Virus record (IMG/VR): IMGVR_UViG_3300027365_000010
Span: 1 to 64,000 of that record
Length of the DNA: 64,000 bases
From: a virus
Reading direction: 5' to 3' (one strand)
In this document: piece after piece, positions 12,955 through 59,703 of the stretch
How the letters are laid out: the number at the start of each line of letters is the position of its first letter
Position numbering within the stretch: the stretch's first letter is position 1
Program-made: the position numbers and the translations under genes
The notes under the pieces: model-generated
Seen by the model: the letters and a program-made list of their open reading frames with translations, nothing else
The model's database searches: none
What the model was told of the DNA's origin: nothing

Positions 12955-13078
12955 AAAAAGATCTTCGTTTTACAGGGAATACGGGGGATATAAACTGTTC
13001 GCTGTTTATATCCCATTTATAACTGACTAATGTATTGACGATATTGTTTAATTGTTCAGTAAGAAGAAACCTGCTCAT
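12953..13078 (-). CDS. 41-codon upstream part of a frameshifted gene
   Basis: Starts with ATG at 13078, whose ATGA overlaps the stop of the HAD gene, a classical coupling signal. It reads MSRFLLTEQLNN... and ends ...KRRSF at a TAA. A T5 run followed by the TAA (TCT TTT TAA) would let a +1 slip continue straight into the 137-codon frame downstream. It also contains a hairpin-forming sequence. Either a truncating indel, a programmed +1 shift or a base error could explain this. Confidence 0.5.
   Translation of the reverse strand: MSRFLLTEQLNNIVNTLVSYKWDINSEQFISPVFPVKRRSF
12985..13014. repeat. 11-bp perfect inverted repeat (hairpin)
   Basis: GGGATATAAAC and GTTTATATCCC are separated by eight bases. 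The repeat lies inside the small upstream ORF, about 30 bases before the frameshift point, and has no T-run on either strand. It is therefore not an obvious terminator and could be an RNA structural element. Confidence 0.55.
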
Positions 13079-13554
13079 TCACAACTCCATAAATGATGAA
13101 TTTTTTCAATATCATTATCGCATAAACCAGTACTTCCATCAACATGTATTAACCTTGAATGATCCTCATACATTTGATCGCCTGAGTCGTCAATAATGAT
13201 ATAATCATCACTATTGATATTATATAGCTCACTATGCTCTATTACTTTTCGGCCTCTCATAAGGCCACCTCCTGTGCTTAGAGCATCACTATGATATGGA
13301 ACCTTTAAAAACCTACAAATATTCTCTGAATCACCATTGAAGGTAGCCCATGATGACACAATGACTACTTGTGCATTGTACTCACTGACAATACTCTGAA
13401 GACGCTTTAGCTTATCACTAACCACATAGTCACCGCGAGTAAAAAAATGTATATCTTCTGGTATCAATCCCGTTGTGCGTAAACTATTATGTAAACGTTC
13501 ATGGTCACTGTAGCAGTTAAGTACACCATCAATATCTAAATAAATTACCTTCAT
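13075..13554 (-). CDS. HAD-family phosphatase (Swiss-army-knife RNA-repair type HAD)
   Basis: 159 residues. Motif I is DIDGVLN near residues 7-13 (nucleophile Asp and acid/base Asp), motif II is VIVSSW, and motif IV is YIIIDDSGDQ. These are the conserved HAD catalytic elements, and the compact length with GVLN and SSW fits the small HAD domains associated with RNA repair. The substrate could be a nucleotide or RNA terminal phosphate. It overlaps both neighbours by four bases. Confidence 0.7.
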   Translation of the reverse strand: MKVIYLDIDGVLNCYSDHERLHNSLRTTGLIPEDIHFFTRGDYVVSDKLKRLQSIVSEYNAQVVIVSSWATFNGDSENICRFLKVPYHSDALSTGGGLMRGRKVIEHSELYNINSDDYIIIDDSGDQMYEDHSRLIHVDGSTGLCDNDIEKIHHLWSCE

Positions 13555-15323: not shown

Positions 15324-15860
15324 TTAATATTTTACGTGCACGTGGAAAACGACATTTACTTCAGTACTAAATGTTTTATATTCCAATATTTCAGAAACAA
15401 TATTCCAATCACCACCGCCCAATCCGCAACCAATTTTAGGGATTATGACATTCAATGTGTTATTAAGTGAGTTGTTTGTGTCATAACACTTTTTGCGAAT
15501 GGCTTCGTTAATCGCAGACTCTAATGCTTCGATAAATGCTCCATAGTTAAAATATCGTCTCTCAGTACCATAATACAATTGTGTATAAAGATTGAATGCC
15601 ATTTTGTGGGGAGGTTTGCCTTCGTCTTCATAACTAACCATACTGAACTTACCAAGTTTTTTATTATGGTCACCACCAACTTCTAGATGATATTCAAGGT
15701 CTGCATGATAAAGTTCTGGAATGCGACTTTTTACATCACGAGCAATTCCACTGTTCATAGTCACCTGACAGTTTGCTCCATGCGCAAATATATGGTATTT
15801 GTTATTGGTCAAAAAGTGATGTACGGCATCACTTTTTTCATAATATAGTATTTTATTCAT
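15324..15860 (-). CDS. Macro-domain protein (ADP-ribose binding or hydrolase)
   Basis: 178 residues. It shows the macro-domain order: AHGANCQVTMNSGIARDVKSR (the N-rich ADP-ribose loop, then G-I-A), KLGKFSMV, FNLYTQ, YGAFIEALESA and IPKIGCGLGGGDW near the C-terminus (the second ADP-ribose-binding loop). Members bind ADP-ribose and often remove it or hydrolyse ADP-ribose-1''-phosphate. This would counter host ADP-ribosylation or recycle products of NAD or tRNA-splicing chemistry. It overlaps its upstream neighbour by eight bases. Confidence 0.8.
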   Translation of the reverse strand: MNKILYYEKSDAVHHFLTNNKYHIFAHGANCQVTMNSGIARDVKSRIPELYHADLEYHLEVGGDHNKKLGKFSMVSYEDEGKPPHKMAFNLYTQLYYGTERRYFNYGAFIEALESAINEAIRKKCYDTNNSLNNTLNVIIPKIGCGLGGGDWNIVSEILEYKTFSTEVNVVFHVHVKY

Positions 15861-26163: not shown

Positions 26164-26961
26164 TTAATATTCGATACCATTTTCTAGAGCATCATACAGT
26201 TGCTCTATGCAAAAATCTTCCTCAACATCATACCATAGCTTTTTATTAGTTTCAATAACATACTCGTCAATTTCATGAAGCTTCTTAGGTTCCATGTAAC
26301 GGCATCTATCACGTTGATTACTATTGAAACTTTCACTAACTCGCTTTCTAAGTTCGTCTATGGCTTCCTTATAGTATTGGATCTCTTGTGACATTTCGAA
26401 TTTAGTAAAATTATGGTTACCCAACTTCAATGCACGAAGATAGTCATATACCGTATTATCATAGATGCGATAATCATTTGTATAAAAGTTATCTTCAAAA
26501 ATCATTTTTGCAGCGTAGTAACAGCGTACTGCATGAGCAAAACGCTTTCCATTACCTTTGGAGTGTTTAATGTCTCGCCTAGCATAACCAAGAAACGAAC
26601 GTATGGTTGTGAAATTATAGAACCATGTCCTTCTATGCGACAAGAATTCAAGAACTGTTCCGTTACATTGATTTGTGTGAAGGGTTTCAAAATACGCAGT
26701 TGAATCACCAGTCATTAGATTCCTGACCAGCAACTGTAAAGTAGTAAAAATCGTGTCTCGTTCTTCAGTTGCATTCTGCAATGTATGATGTTGCCATAGG
26801 TAGGTATTGGCAAAGAAATCGTTTTGCATAACCACTGCAATATCATCGATGTCGGATTCATTTGTATCAAGAGCATAAATCTTCGAACCAAATTCAAAAC
26901 GATCAATGATACTGTCGTTTAAGACATTTATAATTTTTTCATCATTAATGTGTATATTCAT
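26164..26961 (-). CDS. Nucleotidyltransferase (RlaP/Pol-beta superfamily)
   Basis: 265 residues. FEFGSKIYALDTNESDIDDIAVV is the nucleotidyltransferase GS...S-D-x-D motif near residues 22-43, with both metal-binding Asp. A helical C-terminal domain contains H-A-V-R-C-Y-Y-A-A-K-M-I. RlaP-type members have been linked to RNA repair. A second, divergent member is at 31.4 kb. Confidence 0.7.
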   Translation of the reverse strand: MNIHINDEKIINVLNDSIIDRFEFGSKIYALDTNESDIDDIAVVMQNDFFANTYLWQHHTLQNATEERDTIFTTLQLLVRNLMTGDSTAYFETLHTNQCNGTVLEFLSHRRTWFYNFTTIRSFLGYARRDIKHSKGNGKRFAHAVRCYYAAKMIFEDNFYTNDYRIYDNTVYDYLRALKLGNHNFTKFEMSQEIQYYKEAIDELRKRVSESFNSNQRDRCRYMEPKKLHEIDEYVIETNKKLWYDVEEDFCIEQLYDALENGIEY

Positions 26962-27027: not shown

Positions 27028-27056
27028 TTTAGACTATATTGAATGTATGGTATAAT
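27028..27056 (+). promoter_or_regulatory. Strong sigma-70 promoter with extended -10
   Basis: TTTAGA, 17-base spacer, TATAAT preceded by TG-G, 47 bases before the CheW-like gene. Confidence 0.7.
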
Positions 27057-27102
27057 AGATCTCACTCTAAATATAGAAGGTTTCTAGGAGGCAATACACA
27101 GA

Positions 27103-27519
27103 ATGCAACATCTTTCTTTCAAACTCAATGATATTCGCTTAACAGTGCCTCTCATGGATGTTAAGGAAATTATTACGTACAGAGAACCTACACGCTTCTT
27201 CTCGACTAATAGTTCAGTCGATGGAATGATTTATCTACGGGATACTGTTATTACAGTAATCAATCCCAAAGTCATTTTTAATATTTTTGATGATAAAATA
27301 CCGACACACATCATCATCTTAGAACTTGGACATGATACCTATTTGGGACTTGAGATTGATGAAATTACAGATATTATCAATGTTGAAGAATCAGAAAAAA
27401 CCGACACTGATGTTGTTTTAGGTAAAGGAGTTGAGTATATAGATTATGTCATTAACAAAGGTGAGGTAATCTACAATAACCTTTCAATGAAAAAATTAAG
27501 AGAAGACTTTTATGCCTAA
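27103..27519 (+). CDS. CheW-like chemotaxis coupling protein
   Basis: 138 residues spanning one CheW domain. The ordered features are MQHLSFKLNDIRLTVPLMDVKEII (opening strands and the V-x-E-I helix), DGMIYLRDTVITVINPK (the G-x-x-x-LR-x-x-x-x-x-x-x-NP motif common to CheW), IIILELGHDTYLGLEIDEI, and GVEYIDYVINKGEVIYNNLSMKKL. In bacteria CheW bridges chemoreceptors and the CheA kinase. A phage copy could bind receptors or CheA and alter motility or signalling; that is inference. AGGAGG precedes the ATG and the promoter is early type. Confidence 0.75.
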   Translation: MQHLSFKLNDIRLTVPLMDVKEIITYREPTRFFSTNSSVDGMIYLRDTVITVINPKVIFNIFDDKIPTHIIILELGHDTYLGLEIDEITDIINVEESEKTDTDVVLGKGVEYIDYVINKGEVIYNNLSMKKLREDFYA

Positions 27520-27979
27520 AAAGAATGTAAAGGTGGTTTATACGATAACCGATCATATTAATGGTCGTCTCGAAGCTATTAAACCTAGTAAAGGCTTTAT
27601 GACTGATGCTGAAAAACTCAAAATAGTTCGGGAATCACTTTGTTGTATTGTGATGAACCGATTTAACCGTGCATTAGCGAACGATACACATATTACAGTA
27701 GGAAGTGTTAAAATACTAAAGTTATATGCGGTTGATATCTACAGCTATCGCGATTGTGAGATTGTATCTGACAATCATAACAATAATACTTTATTTGGAT
27801 CTAATAGATTACAAATACATTCTGACAGTTTCTGTGTGAGCTTAGAATTCGACTCCGAAAAGTCTTACGGCCTTTTTAAGATTAAAAACGGGTTTGAAAA
27901 ATTGAAAAATAATTTAGGAACGCCATTTACAGGTCTTGGTATAGATAATACATGCACTGTCGAAGAATATAGAGAGTGA
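27512..27979 (+). CDS. Hypothetical protein, co-transcribed with the CheW-like gene
   Basis: 155 residues, overlapping the CheW-like gene by eight bases. A basic N-terminus (MPKKNVKVVYTITDHINGRLE) is followed by mixed alpha/beta sequence; no family recognised. The coupling suggests its function may be linked to the CheW-like protein. Confidence 0.55.
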   Translation: MPKKNVKVVYTITDHINGRLEAIKPSKGFMTDAEKLKIVRESLCCIVMNRFNRALANDTHITVGSVKILKLYAVDIYSYRDCEIVSDNHNNNTLFGSNRLQIHSDSFCVSLEFDSEKSYGLFKIKNGFEKLKNNLGTPFTGLGIDNTCTVEEYRE

Positions 27980-27993
27980 TATTCACTCTCTAT
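27969..27993. terminator. Convergent terminator
   Basis: ATAGAGAGTGA / TCACTCTCTAT, 11-bp stem with a three-base loop, followed by ATTTTTT, ends the CheW-like operon and the opposing gene. Confidence 0.8.
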
Positions 27994-28738
27994 TAATTTT
28001 TTCTAGATACGTTTTATATAATTGATATAAACGCTTCTTGAAAGCTTTATCATACTTTCCTTTCAAATCTGATAACATCTCCCCGCCATGCGTTTCCACT
28101 CTTATTAAAGATATAAAGTTATCAAACGAAGGATTTTTCGAAAATATGGACATTACACTTGGATCTTCAAAGACATGTTCAATCTCATGCATTATCTGGA
28201 TATAAAAGGCATTGTATTCATGTGGTGTGTCTATATACTTACCAGATTGTCTCAGCTTACGCTTTGTATCGATATACATTTCTTCATTATCACTATCAAC
28301 TGAATCCATAAAATGCACATATTCATGGACGAACACCTTTTTATACATATTGGTGAACATTTTATAAAAATCATTTATACTTATTAGATCTTCATCGTTA
28401 TTTTCATTGATGTATAAATGGATCTCATACTTAAATGTTGTCGTGTAACCATCGTTGATGCTGGTTGTGATCAATTTCCCTATTGTGTTTTTGGTAAGCT
28501 GATTTCGTGGAAGGACTCGGACACCGAGTGGATTATCTTTATAGGTAAGCTTGAATGTATACTTATACAGCTTTCTCAAAATATCCAAGTATGATTTCTC
28601 AAAATAATCAAATTCATCTAGACCAAGTAATTCTATATGGCCTTTGAATTCAATCATAAAATTATCAAATGCTTCACGGGCATTTGATAATTTCTTTTGA
28701 TCAGAGTCTATATCTTCAAAAAGTTGTTGTAATCTCAT
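27983..28738 (-). CDS. Putative internal head protein: HExxH metallopeptidase-like
   Basis: 251 residues. Tag MRLQQLFEDI. HEYVH lies at residues 138-142 in a helix (KVFVHEYVHFMDSV). A later HEYNAFYIQIMHEIEH segment offers further Glu/His ligands. Outside the tag and motif it differs from the 21 and 22.7 kb proteins, so the tag is conserved better than the enzyme. Zinc peptidase activity inferred. Confidence 0.6.
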   Translation of the reverse strand: MRLQQLFEDIDSDQKKLSNAREAFDNFMIEFKGHIELLGLDEFDYFEKSYLDILRKLYKYTFKLTYKDNPLGVRVLPRNQLTKNTIGKLITTSINDGYTTTFKYEIHLYINENNDEDLISINDFYKMFTNMYKKVFVHEYVHFMDSVDSDNEEMYIDTKRKLRQSGKYIDTPHEYNAFYIQIMHEIEHVFEDPSVMSIFSKNPSFDNFISLIRVETHGGEMLSDLKGKYDKAFKKRLYQLYKTYLEKINRE

Positions 28739-31201: not shown

Positions 31202-31429
31202 TTAATTAGATAGTTCTAGTTCAACAACATGGTAATCGCCTGATACATCATCAATTAGTACATATTTGCCTTGACTAACAACACTACTGACTAGCTTCTC
31301 AAGCGACGTGTTCGAATAGATAGGGAAGTTCATAGAGTAAACTTCATCTATCGTCCCATGATTCCTATACTTCCACTCAGTGGAAGCATTTGGATACCAT
31401 GAGTATACAACTGGAAGATGCTTATTCAT
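31202..31429 (-). CDS. Small hypothetical protein
   Basis: 75 residues, beta-rich (VYSWYPN, then KYVLIDDVSGDYHVVELEL). It overlaps the nucleotidyltransferase gene by four bases. Not recognised. Confidence 0.55.
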   Translation of the reverse strand: MNKHLPVVYSWYPNASTEWKYRNHGTIDEVYSMNFPIYSNTSLEKLVSSVVSQGKYVLIDDVSGDYHVVELELSN

Positions 31430-32313
31430 TTTATCACCCTATTGGTAATTTGTTTAATTTCTTGCAATGCCTGTTCGAACTTATCCACACTACGAACATC
31501 ATCAGCGCTTACAGTACCATAAAATTCTTCTAGACAATCCAATAGTAGTTGCTTGATTTTAGCCTCATCCGCTGTATGTTGTAAAGTCGATTTGGCATAA
31601 AGTTCGTCAAGAGTTTTTTCTTTTCGCTTGAAGAAATCCTCAATTTCTTCAATACTCCAATCACCGCGTCGTACAGACTTCAGCATTTCACGATGTGCCA
31701 TAGGATCGAAATCACCATGGACCAGAATATCTTCAACTTGGTTGATTAATCGAATGATATGATATCCAAATTTAACATCGTAGCCATATTTTTCAACCAG
31801 TTCTTTGCGCATACCTTTACTTTCTTTATGTCTTAGTTTTTTCATTTGCGCATATGCATAACCGCGATATCGATGCCATGCGCCTTTATGAAGGAACATG
31901 TGGCGGCTATCTTTAACCATATCACCAATTTTTGTACTATGTGTTACAGATTGTTGGCGAGTGAACAAAGAGTCTAACATGTTCGGGTTATTGTCCATAA
32001 GCAATGTAAAGTACGTCACAATACTGAAAATATTCAAGTCTATTTCTTTATCATATGCATTGATATGATGCTTTTGGTACTGCTTGAATGTTTCTGGACC
32101 TTTTTTACCAAAATTATAGATGTATCCTGCGGTATGTGGGAATACAATTCTCTTTGGTGGGATAGTAAACGCATAAATGTCTAGATCGGAATCGTCATTA
32201 GAAACACCATACGCTTGGCTTCCCATAATAGTTTCATATTGAACGTTTTCTAAAATATAAGGTTCAATATTCGTCACAATTTTGTCTCGATACAATCTCT
32301 GACTGTAATTCAT
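31426..32313 (-). CDS. Nucleotidyltransferase (RlaP/Pol-beta superfamily)
   Basis: 295 residues. MGSQAYGVSNDDSDLDIYAF near residues 30-49 is the GS...D-S-D-L-D catalytic motif, followed by HHINAYDKEIDLNIFSI (the third acidic position D-L-N). The helical domain RGYAYAQMKKL and GYHIIRLI then matches the RlaP type. It differs in sequence from the 26 kb protein but shares its layout. Probably attaches a nucleotide to an RNA or nucleotide substrate. Confidence 0.8.
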   Translation of the reverse strand: MNYSQRLYRDKIVTNIEPYILENVQYETIMGSQAYGVSNDDSDLDIYAFTIPPKRIVFPHTAGYIYNFGKKGPETFKQYQKHHINAYDKEIDLNIFSIVTYFTLLMDNNPNMLDSLFTRQQSVTHSTKIGDMVKDSRHMFLHKGAWHRYRGYAYAQMKKLRHKESKGMRKELVEKYGYDVKFGYHIIRLINQVEDILVHGDFDPMAHREMLKSVRRGDWSIEEIEDFFKRKEKTLDELYAKSTLQHTADEAKIKQLLLDCLEEFYGTVSADDVRSVDKFEQALQEIKQITNRVIK

Positions 32314-35714: not shown

Positions 35715-35740
35715 AATACAAGAAAAGAAGGATGTTGGTA

Positions 35741-36757
35741 ATGCCGAAGATGAAATTATGGCGTAATAATAGAACAAATGATTTTAAATTTCAGGACAAC
35801 ATAATACGTGAGTTTTTTGAAATATCAGGTACCCAAGTTTACGTACATCGATACGTTGGCGTAATAGATGATGATGGGAATGTGAATGAGGATATAAAGA
35901 TCCAAGATCTGCTATTTATGGAATCACGTGACCGTAAATATGACAAAGACGTGATCGAAATGTGGGGCATATACCAAGTCTCTGATAATGACTTTGAACT
36001 TTCCCAGTTTGGCTTTTTTATGTCTGATACTCTATATCTAGACTTTCATCTCAATAGCATGGCATCTAAATTAGGACGCAAGCTTTCTGCTGGCGATGTG
36101 ATCGAACTCACACATCTACGTGACGATCTCGTAGAGGGCGAAGAGGGTGCAGTAAATGCGTTCTACGTCATTGAAGAAGGTCGTCGTTCGGCTGAAGGAT
36201 ATGGTCCCACATGGTTACCTCATGTATGGCGGGTAAGAATAAAGAAAATATTTGATAGCCGTGAATACAGTGATGTTCTAGAAAATATACAGGAAGAATC
36301 GGATAACGATGGTCTTTTAGATATTATTTCAAACCACAATCAAGCGACTAATGCAAACATATCTGCCGTTACAGAAGCCGAAGAAGAAGTTCCGTATAAC
36401 GACTATGTAGATGACTATATCTATCGTCCAGAATTAGACGGTGCTGAAGAAATGGATGATACCATTGATTTAGAAAGTGTTCCTAAACGAACATCATTTC
36501 CTGTAGATGCTGAAGAAGGCGACTATGTGATACGTATAGATTATAAACCGGCACAGATATTTGTGTTTCGTGAGGACCGCTGGGAACTAGTAGATCAGAA
36601 ATATTACCGCAATTGGTCTCCGGGTCATGAACATCATAAATCCTTTATTGAGAATGATAAAACATTTAATGATGGTGATCGTGGCGAGCGCCAAGAAGAA
36701 ACATACATTAGCAATCCAATTAATCCAATCGTAGACAATGATGATAACAATGAATAA
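35741..36757 (+). CDS. Neck protein (T4 gp14-like)
   Basis: 338 residues from ATG 35741, which has AAGGATG upstream at good spacing (an ATG at 35732 sits directly on the Shine-Dalgarno). The region IREFFEISGTQVYVHR, FGFFMSDTLYLDF, GRKLSAGDVIELT and NAFYVIEEG follows the plan of T4 gp14 (G-x-x-Y-x-x-R, S-K-F-G, D-E, G-R-K-P-K-E-G-D-L-I-Y). It seats at the head-tail junction. The C-terminal 130 residues are acidic and probably flexible. Confidence 0.65.
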   Translation: MPKMKLWRNNRTNDFKFQDNIIREFFEISGTQVYVHRYVGVIDDDGNVNEDIKIQDLLFMESRDRKYDKDVIEMWGIYQVSDNDFELSQFGFFMSDTLYLDFHLNSMASKLGRKLSAGDVIELTHLRDDLVEGEEGAVNAFYVIEEGRRSAEGYGPTWLPHVWRVRIKKIFDSREYSDVLENIQEESDNDGLLDIISNHNQATNANISAVTEAEEEVPYNDYVDDYIYRPELDGAEEMDDTIDLESVPKRTSFPVDAEEGDYVIRIDYKPAQIFVFREDRWELVDQKYYRNWSPGHEHHKSFIENDKTFNDGDRGERQEETYISNPINPIVDNDDNNE

Positions 36758-37565
36758 AACAATAAACGAGAAACTTATACAAACTCCACCAAAGACTCCT
36801 AATGAAGGTCAGGTAATTGTAATGGCTGGATCTGCGGGTTCTGGTAAAAACTTTTCAATTGATAATTTCACCGATATAGGTAATAAATTCAAAGTTTTGG
36901 ATATTGACGATTTACAACATCTTGTGGTAAAGAGCAAGGTTATATTCAAACGCTTCAGAGAATTTTTAGAAAAGATAGACTCGCCTTTCGCTGACTACAC
37001 TGACAGCGACTTACGTGATCCGAGTATTTTCCGCGATAGTGAATTTGTGGATACTATCTATGATTTTCTCACGGTGAATAATATACCAAGAAGTCGTTTA
37101 GACGTTTTCTTACGTACAAATAAAAAAAGTGAGAGATTACCAAATGTCGTTATCAATACAACTTTCGGTAACGTAGACAATGTAAAAAAGAAACTGCAAG
37201 TTTTGATGGATCATGGTTATAAGAAAGAAAATATAAACCTACTCTGGATATTAACTACCAAAGAAGAATCTATGATGCGAAACCTATCTAGAGAAAGAAC
37301 TGTTAAAGGGGATTATCTAGAAAAGAACTATGCCGAAACAGTACGTAATATGAAAGAGATTATTTCAAAACAGTCCGGTCTATTAAACACATATATCGAT
37401 GGTAAGATATGGGCCGTCTTTAATACGTCATTGTTAACAAGGTTTCACGATAATAGTAAGCTTGTTAAAGATTTCACTTATGTAACATTAAAAGACGAAA
37501 ACGGATGGAACAAAAGTGAAATCGAAAAGCTTAATCGTTGGATTTCAGGAATCGGACGGAGCTGA
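36750..37565 (+). CDS. P-loop kinase-like protein (zeta-toxin type)
   Basis: 271 residues from ATG 36750, overlapping the gp14-like stop. VIVMAGSAGSGKNFSID contains a Walker A loop (GSAGSGKN) near residue 27-35, and LPNVVINTTFGNVD resembles the Walker-B-like region of zeta-type kinases. Target unknown; a nucleotide-sugar or nucleotide kinase is possible. N-terminal MNKTINEKL also fits a capsid-tag (I-N-E), so packaging is a weak alternative. It overlaps the convergent thymidine kinase gene by 35 bases. Confidence 0.55.
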   Translation: MNKTINEKLIQTPPKTPNEGQVIVMAGSAGSGKNFSIDNFTDIGNKFKVLDIDDLQHLVVKSKVIFKRFREFLEKIDSPFADYTDSDLRDPSIFRDSEFVDTIYDFLTVNNIPRSRLDVFLRTNKKSERLPNVVINTTFGNVDNVKKKLQVLMDHGYKKENINLLWILTTKEESMMRNLSRERTVKGDYLEKNYAETVRNMKEIISKQSGLLNTYIDGKIWAVFNTSLLTRFHDNSKLVKDFTYVTLKDENGWNKSEIEKLNRWISGIGRS

Positions 37566-52192: not shown

Positions 52193-52735
52193 TTAAATAA
52201 CAATAGTAGTACATGCACTTCCGACAGTAGGACAGAATGTTGAAACGGTTTCCATCGCTTTATGAATCAATGGTATTACCTCGTCGGTTGTCATATTTCG
52301 TATATCTCGATCTTTTAAGTAAGTGTGCATGGCACCTAGTGCATACTCATAACCACTACCAACCGCGTTAATCCCATTAACAGAACGAAGAATGGAAAAG
52401 TCTGATTGCAACTCCCATAGCTGACCTTGTACGCCAATCAGGCAATTACCGCCACCATTCAACTTACCTTTTTCCAGCTCATTTTGGCAGTGTGGTACAA
52501 ACTCTTTGACCAACCATGGATAAATTTGAGATTGTGTTGTTGGGACAAAATCTTTGGTCATAGAATGCTCAATAATTTGCCCAAAGCGATAACTTGAGGT
52601 ATATCCAAATCCCATGTCTCCATTTTTAAATACTTTTGGTTGTGTATGAACAATCTTATTATTTCGTCCAGAACCTTGGATGTCACCACCAATAACAACT
52701 TTATCTCCCACTTCAACACCAATAATACACGTCAT
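52193..52735 (-). CDS. HslV-like Ntn hydrolase
   Basis: 180 residues. MTCIIGVEVGDKVVIGGDIQG is the HslV start (Thr2 nucleophile position, VVIGGD), a Lys at KVF the likely catalytic base partner, and NAVGSGYEYALGAM the G-S-G turn. E. coli HslV is about 176 residues, so the length matches. It shares the order of these motifs with the 17 kb protein but differs in sequence. No HslU partner is adjacent; the AAA+ protein at 29-31 kb is a possible distant one. Confidence 0.75.
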   Translation of the reverse strand: MTCIIGVEVGDKVVIGGDIQGSGRNNKIVHTQPKVFKNGDMGFGYTSSYRFGQIIEHSMTKDFVPTTQSQIYPWLVKEFVPHCQNELEKGKLNGGGNCLIGVQGQLWELQSDFSILRSVNGINAVGSGYEYALGAMHTYLKDRDIRNMTTDEVIPLIHKAMETVSTFCPTVGSACTTIVI

Positions 52736-55248: not shown

Positions 55249-55404
55249 CTATTTCTTAGAAAGGGTTTTTCTATACTTCCCAGTAACAACACTATGGTGG
55301 AACTTGCCCTTACGATTATCTCTATTCAACGACTTAATATTGTTTGTGTGATAGATAAACTTGACAATCATCATTAAAATAATTATCATAAAAATAAATA
55401 CCAT
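55249..55404 (-). CDS. Small membrane protein
   Basis: 51 residues from the ATG at 55404, which has GGAG six bases upstream; an ATG at 55416 has no ribosome site. A hydrophobic helix (VFIFMIIILMMIVKFIY) followed by a basic tail. Unknown. Confidence 0.5.
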   Translation of the reverse strand: MVFIFMIIILMMIVKFIYHTNNIKSLNRDNRKGKFHHSVVTGKYRKTLSKK

Positions 55405-55429
55405 ATTAAACTCCATAAAGGTAATTAGC

Positions 55430-55585
55430 ATGATTGTATGCATTTGTCAAAATGTAAATGATAAGACAGTAGAACAATACAAACAGGAAGGAAAAACATT
55501 AAAAGATTTAGCGTCTGACTACAACATCTGTAGCGGTTGTAGAAAGTGTCTTAGTCATTTTAAAGAAACTTTTTCCAAAGACTGA
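55430..55585 (+). CDS. Bacterioferritin-associated ferredoxin-like protein
   Basis: 51 residues from ATG 55430 with AAAGG upstream. MIVCICQNVNDKTVE starts with the C-x-C pair and ends in CSGCRKCLSHF with a further C-x-x-C pair (and one more Cys), the [2Fe-2S] arrangement of Bfd-like domains. E. coli Bfd is 64 residues. Bfd releases iron from bacterioferritin; a phage copy could mobilise iron or donate electrons. Tentative because the domain is so small. Confidence 0.7.
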   Translation: MIVCICQNVNDKTVEQYKQEGKTLKDLASDYNICSGCRKCLSHFKETFSKD

Positions 55586-56154: not shown

Positions 56155-57912
56155 CTACCAGCTTTTTAATACTCTATGAAGGCTTTGGATAACATCTATG
56201 TATTTTTTCTTGAAATACCGCTCAAACAACTCCATAGAATCTTGATTAGGATTGCCTTCATCAAACTCTTCAAAGAATTCGCTCAAATCAATTCTTTTAG
56301 AAATTGCCTTAAGTGAACTATATAGATATGACATAGTAAAACCATACTTTTCTTTCACTACGCTATTGGCCATCTTGGACAACTTCTTGTAGTACTCTTT
56401 GTTGTACTCATCAGTATATGCAAAGTTTAGTAAATATAATGCCCTGAATAGATGCGTACCTATTTCACCATATCGCTCATGGTAATTCTCACCACCAAAG
56501 AATCGCAGTTCAATACGCCCACCAAGTATATCATAATCTTTGAAGTTAATAGTTTGAAATTTTTCTTTATTATTCGTATTCGAGATATACTGTTCTAAGT
56601 TCTTAACGACATCCACTAAGCTATCATTTTCTAAAACACTAGTTAGAATGTACTTATCGATTACCTTTTCTATTTCATATATTACAATTTCTTGCAAATC
56701 CAGTACATGACTTCTCTCAGGAAAAAATTCACTTATATAATCTATGTCCATAATAGTAATAAACTTCGCTATGTTAAAGTCATCATGATCATGAATACGT
56801 GACGATATAGATATATGCATACCAGCATAGCTTTCAACTCGGTGATTCTGCAAATACTTAAACATGGTCTCGATATTAAGCAATGCCTCATCAACATCCA
56901 TTTTCTCTGTAATCACTTCTATCATTTCGTCGTGTTCATCAACAATCTTATCGATATGAGGAATCTGATCTCTAATTTCATCTTCGTTCACTTCATAGTT
57001 CTGTATAATATCTTCTAAATTTTCTCTCGCAGTGTCCACGAGATGCCTAGTTATACCCAAAACATCATGATAATTCTCCACATACGATATATAATCAGGA
57101 AGCGTAAAATCACCATAACTGAAACCATCTGGCTCTACGGTATAAGAAAGATGTTCTATATCAAGTTCAGTTGTGATCAATGAAGAATTAGACAACATCT
57201 CAATTGCATCTGATACATCCACAATTTCATCTTTATCAATGGAATCTAAATATTCATCATTAGTTATTTCCGTAATGTTGAAAAATCGTTCATCAAATAA
57301 GGTATTGGACTGATAAAAGTTATAGAAATCTTTCATCATCTCACTATTGGCTCCGAAAAGATCACCATCAAAATATACATCTAATACAGTACATATATCA
57401 TACATCTCTCTAAGATTAATTTCATGGTTGTATACAATATCTTTTATGCTGTAAAGCTCTACTTCCCCTTCATCATTTACTGAGTCTTTCAAAACATCCC
57501 TATAAAGAATAACATAAGATGCTTTCTTATCATCGGGGAATAAATCTTGCGTCTCAGTATCAGAAGATTGAAACTCTCTTATTTTTTTAACTAATCGTGT
57601 TGTTAATGTAAGAAAGTCCATTACCTTTGACGGTACTGAACTATCCATGTCATGGACACTTTCAACATAATCAGCAATATATTCGGAATATTCAGGTTCT
57701 AGAAACATATCGTGGTTATCATAGAGTTTGTCTAAATCATGAAGTATTTCATCATCAGCCTGTGATATATCAATGACATCATCGAAGTTAACCTCTTCGC
57801 CTTCATAATTAAACTCATATTCGATACCAACAAAATATTCATCAGCATGATCTAAAATAAACTGTTTTTCTTTATTACCAAACTTAATCCCCTCAAATAA
57901 CTCTTTACTCAT
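56155..57912 (-). CDS. Putative internal head protein, amidoligase-like (paralogue 2)
   Basis: 585 residues. Tag MSKELFEGIKFGNKEK, then VGIEYEF near residue 29. A large acidic, helical insertion (about 60-330) precedes YAGMHISISSRI and GRIELRFFGGENYHERYGEIGTHLFRALYLLNFAYTDEYN. The signature blocks match the 1.6 kb and 57.9 kb proteins. It follows the latter with a four-base overlap and depends on its promoter. Ligase function inferred. Confidence 0.6.
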   Translation of the reverse strand: MSKELFEGIKFGNKEKQFILDHADEYFVGIEYEFNYEGEEVNFDDVIDISQADDEILHDLDKLYDNHDMFLEPEYSEYIADYVESVHDMDSSVPSKVMDFLTLTTRLVKKIREFQSSDTETQDLFPDDKKASYVILYRDVLKDSVNDEGEVELYSIKDIVYNHEINLREMYDICTVLDVYFDGDLFGANSEMMKDFYNFYQSNTLFDERFFNITEITNDEYLDSIDKDEIVDVSDAIEMLSNSSLITTELDIEHLSYTVEPDGFSYGDFTLPDYISYVENYHDVLGITRHLVDTARENLEDIIQNYEVNEDEIRDQIPHIDKIVDEHDEMIEVITEKMDVDEALLNIETMFKYLQNHRVESYAGMHISISSRIHDHDDFNIAKFITIMDIDYISEFFPERSHVLDLQEIVIYEIEKVIDKYILTSVLENDSLVDVVKNLEQYISNTNNKEKFQTINFKDYDILGGRIELRFFGGENYHERYGEIGTHLFRALYLLNFAYTDEYNKEYYKKLSKMANSVVKEKYGFTMSYLYSSLKAISKRIDLSEFFEEFDEGNPNQDSMELFERYFKKKYIDVIQSLHRVLKSW

Positions 57913-59633
57913 TCCAAACCCCTTAAAAAATCCAAATCTAGCATCCAGTCTTCACCAAACGCTTTTGACATATATCTATCGAACTGTTTAATGTCATCTA
58001 TCTGTTCTTGACCTATGGTCTTTTTAAACCAGTCATACATTTTTGCTATATCTTTAGGAAATATCTTGTTGGCTCGATTTATTACCGATACAATGTTACT
58101 TAATGAAGTATTATATTTTTCCTTAGCATTTTTATTAATTATCTTAACCATCTTCTTATAAAAAACATTATTATATGTGTCTGTATAAGCGAAGTTCAAA
58201 AGATATAGCGCCCTTAATAAGTGATGTTTGATCTCATCCTCGTATAAATGGTAATCTTCCCCACCAAAGAACCGTAGTTCTATACGCCCATCTAATACTT
58301 TATAATCACCAAATTTTATAGATTGTTCCTTGTGGTAAGAAATCATCACTTCAATTCTGTGTGTAAGTGTTTTAACAATTTCTGATGCTGACAATACTTT
58401 ATTATTACTATTGTATATATCCTCGATAACATCAGGCAACATATCCTTTGCTTCATAATCAATTATTTGTTCTAGATTTTCAACATATTGTCTCTCAGGG
58501 AACATATCTAATACATGATCTAGATCTAAAAGAGCCACGAATTTCATCAGGTTGAAGTCGTCAAGATTGTATTTATTAGTTGATATTGATATATGCATTC
58601 CTGAATAATTACTTGTTTCCGAATTACTGATCATAAAATTGAACATCTGGTCTATGTTCTTAAATGCCTCAATTACGTTCATCTTGGTGGTTATAACTTC
58701 AGCCTGTTCAGCATTGTCCCTTTTAATACCCGTGATTTTAGATATATCAACACCGTGTTCTTTTAAATCATCTTCATCAGGTAAGGAACCTTCTGAATGC
58801 ATCGGGATTTCAGACGAAATAGATTCAAATTGCTCTGAAAATTCTCTGAAAATTTCATTATCAATAGTAGGTATAGTAGCATGATCCTCACGATAAGTTG
58901 TATACTGATCAAAACTTATGCTTTGTTCATCAAACTCTGCAAACTCATAAGGTATATCTTCTTTACTCGGTATATCTAGTAATTCCGTATTAGCCATCGA
59001 ATCTATCAATCCATTTAAGTGCTTCTCATCACCATCGATTATCTTACTAATAATTACTAAATAATCACTGTATTGTGCGAAATTCTCGTCATTAAACATT
59101 TCACCCTCATAATACAGGTCGATAAAACGCATTATATCTTCTATATAACTTCGATTCCAAGAAGAGATACGCTTAACATTTGTCTTATCAATGTCACCGT
59201 TGTTTAAGATCTTCATGAAGGCATCATAAAACTGTCGTATGGTTTTCTCATCATCAACCATATTCATTTGAGTACCAAACTCGTGTTCATCATCTTCCTG
59301 TTCGTCAGACTTTACATTTTTCTTCACAAGTCGGTCAAAGTCATTAATATGATCAAACAGCTTGATTAGGATCATTCCATCTTTAACCATCTGTTGTATT
59401 TTACTACCTACTAGAACATCTTCAAATATTCGTTCAACCTCTACCGTCAGGTCATATGCATTTATCATGGATAAAAAATCATCCATGTCATTATCTAAGA
59501 AATCTCCGATCTTAAGATTTTCTTTATAATGCATTTCATATTCTATACCAACATTAAAATCTTTGGCATTCTTAAGTATTAGAGCTTTTTCTTTCTCTCC
59601 AAATTTAACGCCTTCAAAAATCTTTTTAGTCAT
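57909..59633 (-). CDS. Putative internal head protein, amidoligase-like (paralogue 3)
   Basis: 574 residues from the ATG at 59633, with AAGGAT eight bases upstream; the longer in-frame start lacks a ribosome site. Tag MTKKIFEGVKFGEKEK, VGIEYEMHY, a large acidic insertion, then SGMHISISTNKYNLDDFN and GRIELRFFGGEDYHLYEDEIKHHLLRALYLLNFAYTDTYN. It shows clear colinear similarity with its neighbour. Late promoter in front. Confidence 0.65.
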   Translation of the reverse strand: MTKKIFEGVKFGEKEKALILKNAKDFNVGIEYEMHYKENLKIGDFLDNDMDDFLSMINAYDLTVEVERIFEDVLVGSKIQQMVKDGMILIKLFDHINDFDRLVKKNVKSDEQEDDEHEFGTQMNMVDDEKTIRQFYDAFMKILNNGDIDKTNVKRISSWNRSYIEDIMRFIDLYYEGEMFNDENFAQYSDYLVIISKIIDGDEKHLNGLIDSMANTELLDIPSKEDIPYEFAEFDEQSISFDQYTTYREDHATIPTIDNEIFREFSEQFESISSEIPMHSEGSLPDEDDLKEHGVDISKITGIKRDNAEQAEVITTKMNVIEAFKNIDQMFNFMISNSETSNYSGMHISISTNKYNLDDFNLMKFVALLDLDHVLDMFPERQYVENLEQIIDYEAKDMLPDVIEDIYNSNNKVLSASEIVKTLTHRIEVMISYHKEQSIKFGDYKVLDGRIELRFFGGEDYHLYEDEIKHHLLRALYLLNFAYTDTYNNVFYKKMVKIINKNAKEKYNTSLSNIVSVINRANKIFPKDIAKMYDWFKKTIGQEQIDDIKQFDRYMSKAFGEDWMLDLDFLRGLE

Positions 59634-59659
59634 TATAATATCCTTTTTATCTTTAATAA

Positions 59660-59667
59660 TATTTATA
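59660..59667 (-). promoter_or_regulatory. T4-type late promoter (TATAAATA)
   Basis: Exact octamer on the minus strand, 27 bases before the amidoligase-like pair. Confidence 0.75.
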
Positions 59668-59675
59668 GATAAGAA

Positions 59676-59703
59676 AAAAGGGGGATACACTCATCCCCCT
59701 TTT
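59676..59703. terminator. Terminator
   Basis: AAAAGGGGGAT / ATCCCCCTTTT, 11-bp stem with a six-base loop; a T6 run on the minus strand closes the KTSC-gene transcript. Confidence 0.8.

Follow-up and report, generated by a model that had tools for sequence, protein, structure and literature searches.

At positions 27103-27519 (+) of the window, the whole 64,000-nucleotide stretch of viral DNA analyzed here, an open reading frame starting with ATG encodes a protein of 138 amino acids. It is the only long frame across that stretch, and the reading frames of the opposite strand are blocked by stops. The product is a member of the CheW-domain family. Pfam CheW (PF01584) matches it with an E-value of 1.4e-15 and 57.5 bits (gathering cut-off 23.5), residues 2-124 of the 138 being aligned with profile positions 1-125. 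This coverage of nearly the whole profile bears out the complete CheW domain announced in the original prediction for this DNA. When the protein is compared with PDB sequences using phmmer, the only above-chance matches are CheW proteins. The AlphaFold2 model, computed from a six-row alignment (pLDDT 86, pTM 0.80), has ten main strands and a C-terminal helix, and it contains the two five-stranded SH3-like barrels that characterize the CheW family. In Foldseek the top PDB match of this model is Thermotoga CheW (2ch4; TM 0.84, E 2.3e-10). The non-CheW SH3-like family named beforehand as the competing assignment is rejected, because at E <= 0.001 there are 18 PDB structures, each of them a CheW, a CheA, or one of their complexes, and the next match lies at E 0.69. 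The phage protein is not an E. coli-type CheW, since it scores 25.4 bits against the NCBIfam equivalog model NF007903, whose cut-off is 260. Nor is it a CheV: it has a CheW domain as CheV does, and one clostridial CheV even has a similar “RE.MITVIN” stretch, but CheV bears a C-terminal receiver domain and the 138-residue phage protein has none.

A Shine-Dalgarno sequence, AGGAGG (27086-27091, +), precedes the ATG with an 11-nt spacer. It is real, as the original prediction held, and it is absent from the sibling phage, a 218-kb contig in which cheW is an internal operon gene. Further upstream is a candidate promoter, TTTAGA-17-TATAAT with a TG extension (27028-27056, +), recognized by consensus match only (10/12). 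It is plausible by position, but by number such sites are no better than chance, with 13 in the 2-kb region versus 11.8 expected from shuffles. The site can thus no longer be called a strong early promoter, and promoter strength is dropped as an argument for cheW. The end of cheW overlaps the start of a second gene (27512-27979, +), which encodes a partner of 155 amino acids with no assigned function. A hairpin resembling an intrinsic terminator, with a T run after it (27969-27993, +), ends this two-gene unit. On either side are conserved flanks: a phrog_388 nucleotidyltransferase (26164-26961, -), kept in the sibling, and a 251-aa protein without assigned function (27983-28738, -), 64% identical in the sibling. 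The sibling cheW lies between these same two genes, and there too the partner gene (L040 1023-1448, -) overlaps it. The two partners share 29% identity, with a local score (z 5.7) reached by 0 of 2000 shuffles. The overlap is kept in both phages, which suggests that cheW and its partner are translationally coupled and may act as a two-protein function. The partner matches no family in Pfam or PHROG, has no detectable homologue in the related Salicola phage SCTP-2, and searches for homologues outside the window phage and its sibling found nothing. Its structure prediction (pLDDT 52) gives no usable fold. The partner gene is fast-evolving, and a 146-aa gene upstream of the sibling cheW (L040 1856-2296, -) may be its paralogue, the resemblance being weak.

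The window belongs to a viral record of 92,453 bases, of which it makes up the greater part. A virion protein encoded at 35732-36757 is 60% identical to that of SCTP-2 (440 kb) and 32-36% identical to those of Atu_ph07, Phosso, PA5oct, and 121Q. Dozens more window proteins match SCTP-2, including the tail tube, head-closure, head-tail adaptor, terminase, and ligase. From these protein matches, the window is assigned as a fragment of a jumbo myovirus allied to SCTP-2, and not of a T4 relative strictly speaking. The “T4-type” label of the original prediction was loose, as the relatives are jumbo phages grouped around SCTP-2 rather than T4 itself. ARAGORN finds no tRNA gene in the 64-kb window. 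Several other genes deserve mention. The HAD domain of “Swiss Army Knife” RNA-repair proteins (13075-13554, -), the two phrog_388 nucleotidyltransferases (26164-26961, - and 31426-32313, -), and a zeta-toxin-like kinase (36738-37565, +) form a scattered and possible nucleotide/RNA-repair set. The product of 52193-52735 (-) has a weak match to proteasome/HslV-type Ntn hydrolases (Pfam Proteasome 1.8e-4, just below cut-off) and 49% identity to a region of SCTP-2; it may be a phage proteasome-like protease. A small protein (55361-55585, +), 65% identical in the sibling, matches BFD-like [2Fe-2S] ferredoxins at 2e-5, just below cut-off, and another (15324-15860, -) has a weak macro-domain match (8e-4, below cut-off) and could be an ADP-ribose-handling protein. 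Finally, three large related proteins (1561-2928, 56155-57912, and 57909-59690, all -) have the motif “FG.KE...F.VGIEYE” in common with several SCTP-2 copies. The two that were tested have no Pfam match at 0.01, and they possibly represent an expanded enzyme family.

A CheW gene in a viral record could be bacterial contamination, a chimaera, or a non-functional remnant, and contamination does account for the CheW genes of several “phage” records in the collection. Here, however, cheW is flanked on both sides by phage genes, and a second viral record carries the same DNA (99.985% identity over 20.4 kb). The sibling has cheW at the same locus, its product being 54% identical to the window CheW and matching Pfam CheW with 67.4 bits. 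The GC content of cheW (32%) is near the phage average (35%). Because synonymous sites are saturated between the window and sibling genes (pS 0.80) while pN is 0.26, the gene is, by this measure, under strong purifying selection. The complete SCTP-2 genome also has a copy: gp489 (ASV44504), 139 aa, annotated only as a “hypothetical protein,” is the sole CheW domain there (Pfam CheW 7.9e-18, 64.9 bits). All three phage proteins match phrog_18840 (“unknown function”). Contamination and chimaera are ruled out by this second record, the sibling synteny, selection, GC, and the SCTP-2 copy, and the likelihood that the gene is foreign to the phage or dead is negligible. Profile, fold, related-phage orthologues, and selection give strong support to its description as a CheW-like protein encoded by a phage.

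Such genes are rare. A tblastn search of the window CheW against 50,697 phage records returned a single true phage relative, SCTP-2. The complete genomes of Atu_ph07, PA5oct, 121Q, and Phosso have no CheW domain. When 2.9 million viral contigs were scanned five times for CheW patterns, a method that misses divergent copies, nothing came up apart from the window phage and the sibling; the scans included ones with bacterial CheW patterns and with SCTP-2 gp489. A viral predicted-structure library holds one match only, a 139-aa protein of 26% identity that, judging by its length and identity, is presumably gp489. Phage records were also searched with SCTP-2 gp489, E. coli CheW, and clostridial CheW as queries. 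The candidate MT837366 was rejected because of its cheA-cheW-cheC-cheD-fliA operon, OQ572403 as a high-GC stretch resembling a bacterial chemosensory locus, and MT835701 and MT835753 as bacterial chromosome fragments. These four are public “phage” records with bacterial chromosomal genes, likely mislabelled contigs; the verdict concerns these four and not the short, unannotated records from Listeria and Salmonella or two further faecal contigs. No paper on a phage CheW was found in the open-access literature searched, an absence that is no proof, and a jumbo-phage survey names SCTP-2 with the words “CheW” and “chemotaxis” absent (PMC7824862). The phage CheW is thus genuine, rare, and conserved in one jumbo-phage lineage, with no prior description found.

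The residues retained and lost were compared column by column between the three phage CheWs (window, sibling, and SCTP-2) and 37 bacterial sequences. The window protein keeps E22, G41, R46, F59, and G82, which correspond to E. coli E38, G57, R62, F75, and G99. Each of the three phage proteins has R46, E22, and G41; among the bacterial sequences, R62 and G57 are invariant (100%) and E38 is found in 95%. We take R62 and E38 of E. coli CheW to be residues with functional roles in chemotaxis coupling. G41 and R46 belong to a hairpin (codons 40-53, DGMIYLRDTVITVI, 27220-27261, +), where the model places strands at 39-45 and 48-53 and where the glycine after the conserved arginine has become aspartate. 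The bacterial stretch “LRGNVVTVID” reads “LRDTVITVIN” in the phage, and the “LRG” glycine is missing from all three phage proteins (RD, RD, and RQ, the last in SCTP-2). Sibling-versus-window conservation is not significantly concentrated around this CheA-facing hairpin. The VPxxP loop is lost in two of the three, replaced by RFFSTN or RFFSSN, and the FFSTN change is absent from SCTP-2. Near the C-terminus, codons 124-126 (27472-27480, +) encode “YNN” where the alignment shows a hydrophobic last strand (“LIL”) in bacterial CheWs. This strand reads YNN or YNV in the phages, so that Y124-N125 is common to all three. The “NP motif” that had been put forward as a CheW hallmark does not hold up: N54-P55 is neither conserved nor diagnostic, the equivalent site being DS in the sibling, NL in SCTP-2, and mostly DT or DL in bacterial CheWs. 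R117 and F122, interface-2 positions studied in E. coli CheW (PMC5181776), align with T100 and V105 of the phage protein, and bacterial CheWs are variable there too.

Taken as a whole, the phage protein is like the bacterial CheWs (E. coli, T. maritima, and the gammaproteobacterial “RGNVVTVID” type) in its fold, in its stand-alone domain, and at the E38, G57, R62, and D103 positions. It is unlike them in being trimmed, with no termini past the domain, in lying outside any che operon, and in the changed RG, VPxxP, and last-strand positions; its identity to bacterial CheWs is 25-29%. With gp489 it shares the stand-alone domain in a related jumbo phage, the missing RG, and the YN pair, but the identity is only 26-28%, gp489 is not strictly syntenic, and SCTP-2 is without the partner. 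A further point of reference is FrzB of Myxococcus xanthus, in which 20 residues required for CheA, corresponding to strands 4-5 of subdomain 2, are absent (PMC6952110). Like the phage protein, FrzB is a divergent CheW-like protein beside a standard CheW, and altered coupling is a likely outcome in both cases. However, an FrzB-type identity is rejected for the phage CheW, since it keeps all ten predicted strands with no alignment gap and the deletion of about 20 residues is not seen.

These features bear on what the protein may do. It could be a functional substitute, an auxiliary gene product that would keep the arrays working or boost coupling during host shut-off, so that infected cells would continue to swim, spreading or feeding the infection. 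The complete fold, the kept R62/E38/G57 equivalents, the strands not lost as in FrzB, and the long-term purifying selection fit such a role. But conserved positions are altered in all phage copies (RG to RD or RQ, LIL to YNN or YNV), divergence is fast for a protein fitting a conserved ring, and a single extra coupler is an odd choice to maintain a whole pathway; we regard this role as improbable. The fold may also have been exapted as a scaffold that binds a phage protein, for instance the 155-aa partner, for a purpose unrelated to chemotaxis. In the window phage and the sibling alike, cheW is overlapped by the divergent partner gene, the two genes (54% and 29% identity) change faster than their flanks (64-75%), and the derived “YN” signature is found in all phage copies. 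Such a scaffold is nevertheless rather unlikely, given that SCTP-2 has no detectable partner, that positions typical of bacterial CheWs are kept, and that the partner is predicted with such a low pLDDT.

When a profile made from the three phage proteins is run against 274 genomes (the class of a gammaproteobacterial MAG), the best matches, at up to 76 bits, are stand-alone “LRGNVVTVID” CheWs. In the tree, the three phage CheWs form one group (95/76) whose neighbors are gammaproteobacterial CheWs; 93% of the bootstrap trees contain the group. This placement is tentative because the phage branches are long and the bacterial sequences were picked by similarity to the phage profile. To judge from these comparisons, cheW was captured in the ancestry of the SCTP-2-like jumbo phages, most likely from a gammaproteobacterial host. 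Presumably, the stand-alone CheWs recovered here are of the type typical of flagellar chemotaxis. CheW domains serve non-flagellar chemosensory systems too, so the target might instead be a host CheA-type system that does not steer swimming, such as one for development, c-di-GMP, or type IV pili. The Frz system of M. xanthus is an example (PMC6952110). The nearest bacterial relatives found, these stand-alone gammaproteobacterial CheWs, speak against such a target, though with an identity too low to assign a system, and it is very unlikely.

No second CheW domain (a search that would also expose CheA-P5), MCP signaling domain, or receiver rises above cut-off in the window record, the sibling contig, or SCTP-2, and there is no CheA, receptor, or CheY near the phage cheW in any of them; both syntenic records are incomplete and may lack a partner gene lying farther away. 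A receptor-like gene at positions 70815-71024 of the record (MCPsignal 12.1 bits, below cut-off) encodes a small membrane and coiled-coil protein and was judged a chance match. Any CheW-type partners would therefore be the receptors and CheA of the host. Since the window virus, its sibling, and SCTP-2 each carry their own CheW copy, the virus probably tampers with host chemotaxis.

The reading that we favor, with moderate confidence, is that the phage CheW is directed at the host, as a decoy or modulator that would join receptor-CheA arrays and alter their assembly or kinase output. The SCTP-2-like jumbo phages keep the captured gene under selection. In this model, the small protein would be made in excess during infection, bind host receptor tips and/or CheA-P5, and compete with host CheW, or insert beside it, in the receptor-CheA-CheW rings. 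There it would act as a dominant non-native coupler, loosening the arrays or resetting CheA activity, and the swimming and tumbling of infected cells would shift to the phage's advantage, or a CheA-dependent output would be switched. The changed positions (RD/RQ for RG, VPxxP lost in two of three, “YNN” for “LIL”) would make it an incomplete coupler and not a full replacement. CheW overexpression reportedly reduces polar arrays (PMC4718596), and lesions in CheW interface 2 disperse the arrays and lower chemotactic sensitivity (PMC5181776), and therefore an altered phage CheW may be expected to behave as a dominant modulator. For a flagellum-dependent jumbo phage, infection did not require host che genes (PMC11797060), which fits a benefit in the field, not on the plate. 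Against the modulator model, the phage CheWs diverge fast (54% identity versus a median of 65% for proteins shared with the sibling, and 26-28% to SCTP-2), and for this reason CheW contact surfaces may have been lost; the lack of significant clustering of conserved residues around the CheA-facing hairpin also counts against it.

Few sensing machines in biology are understood as well as chemoreceptor arrays. A bolder version, which we hold tentatively, is that this jumbo-phage lineage encodes its own array subunit which, with a co-translated partner, would insert into the CheA-CheW baseplate and rewire chemotaxis. The role can be tested now, because SCTP-2, a cultured relative grown on Salicola, carries cheW. 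If true, the array subunit would represent a class of viral host-behavior effector of which no description was found. A virus with such a subunit suggests direct phage control of host navigation, beyond losing or blocking flagella, and the phage CheW would provide a natural variant for probing which surfaces of CheW are important.
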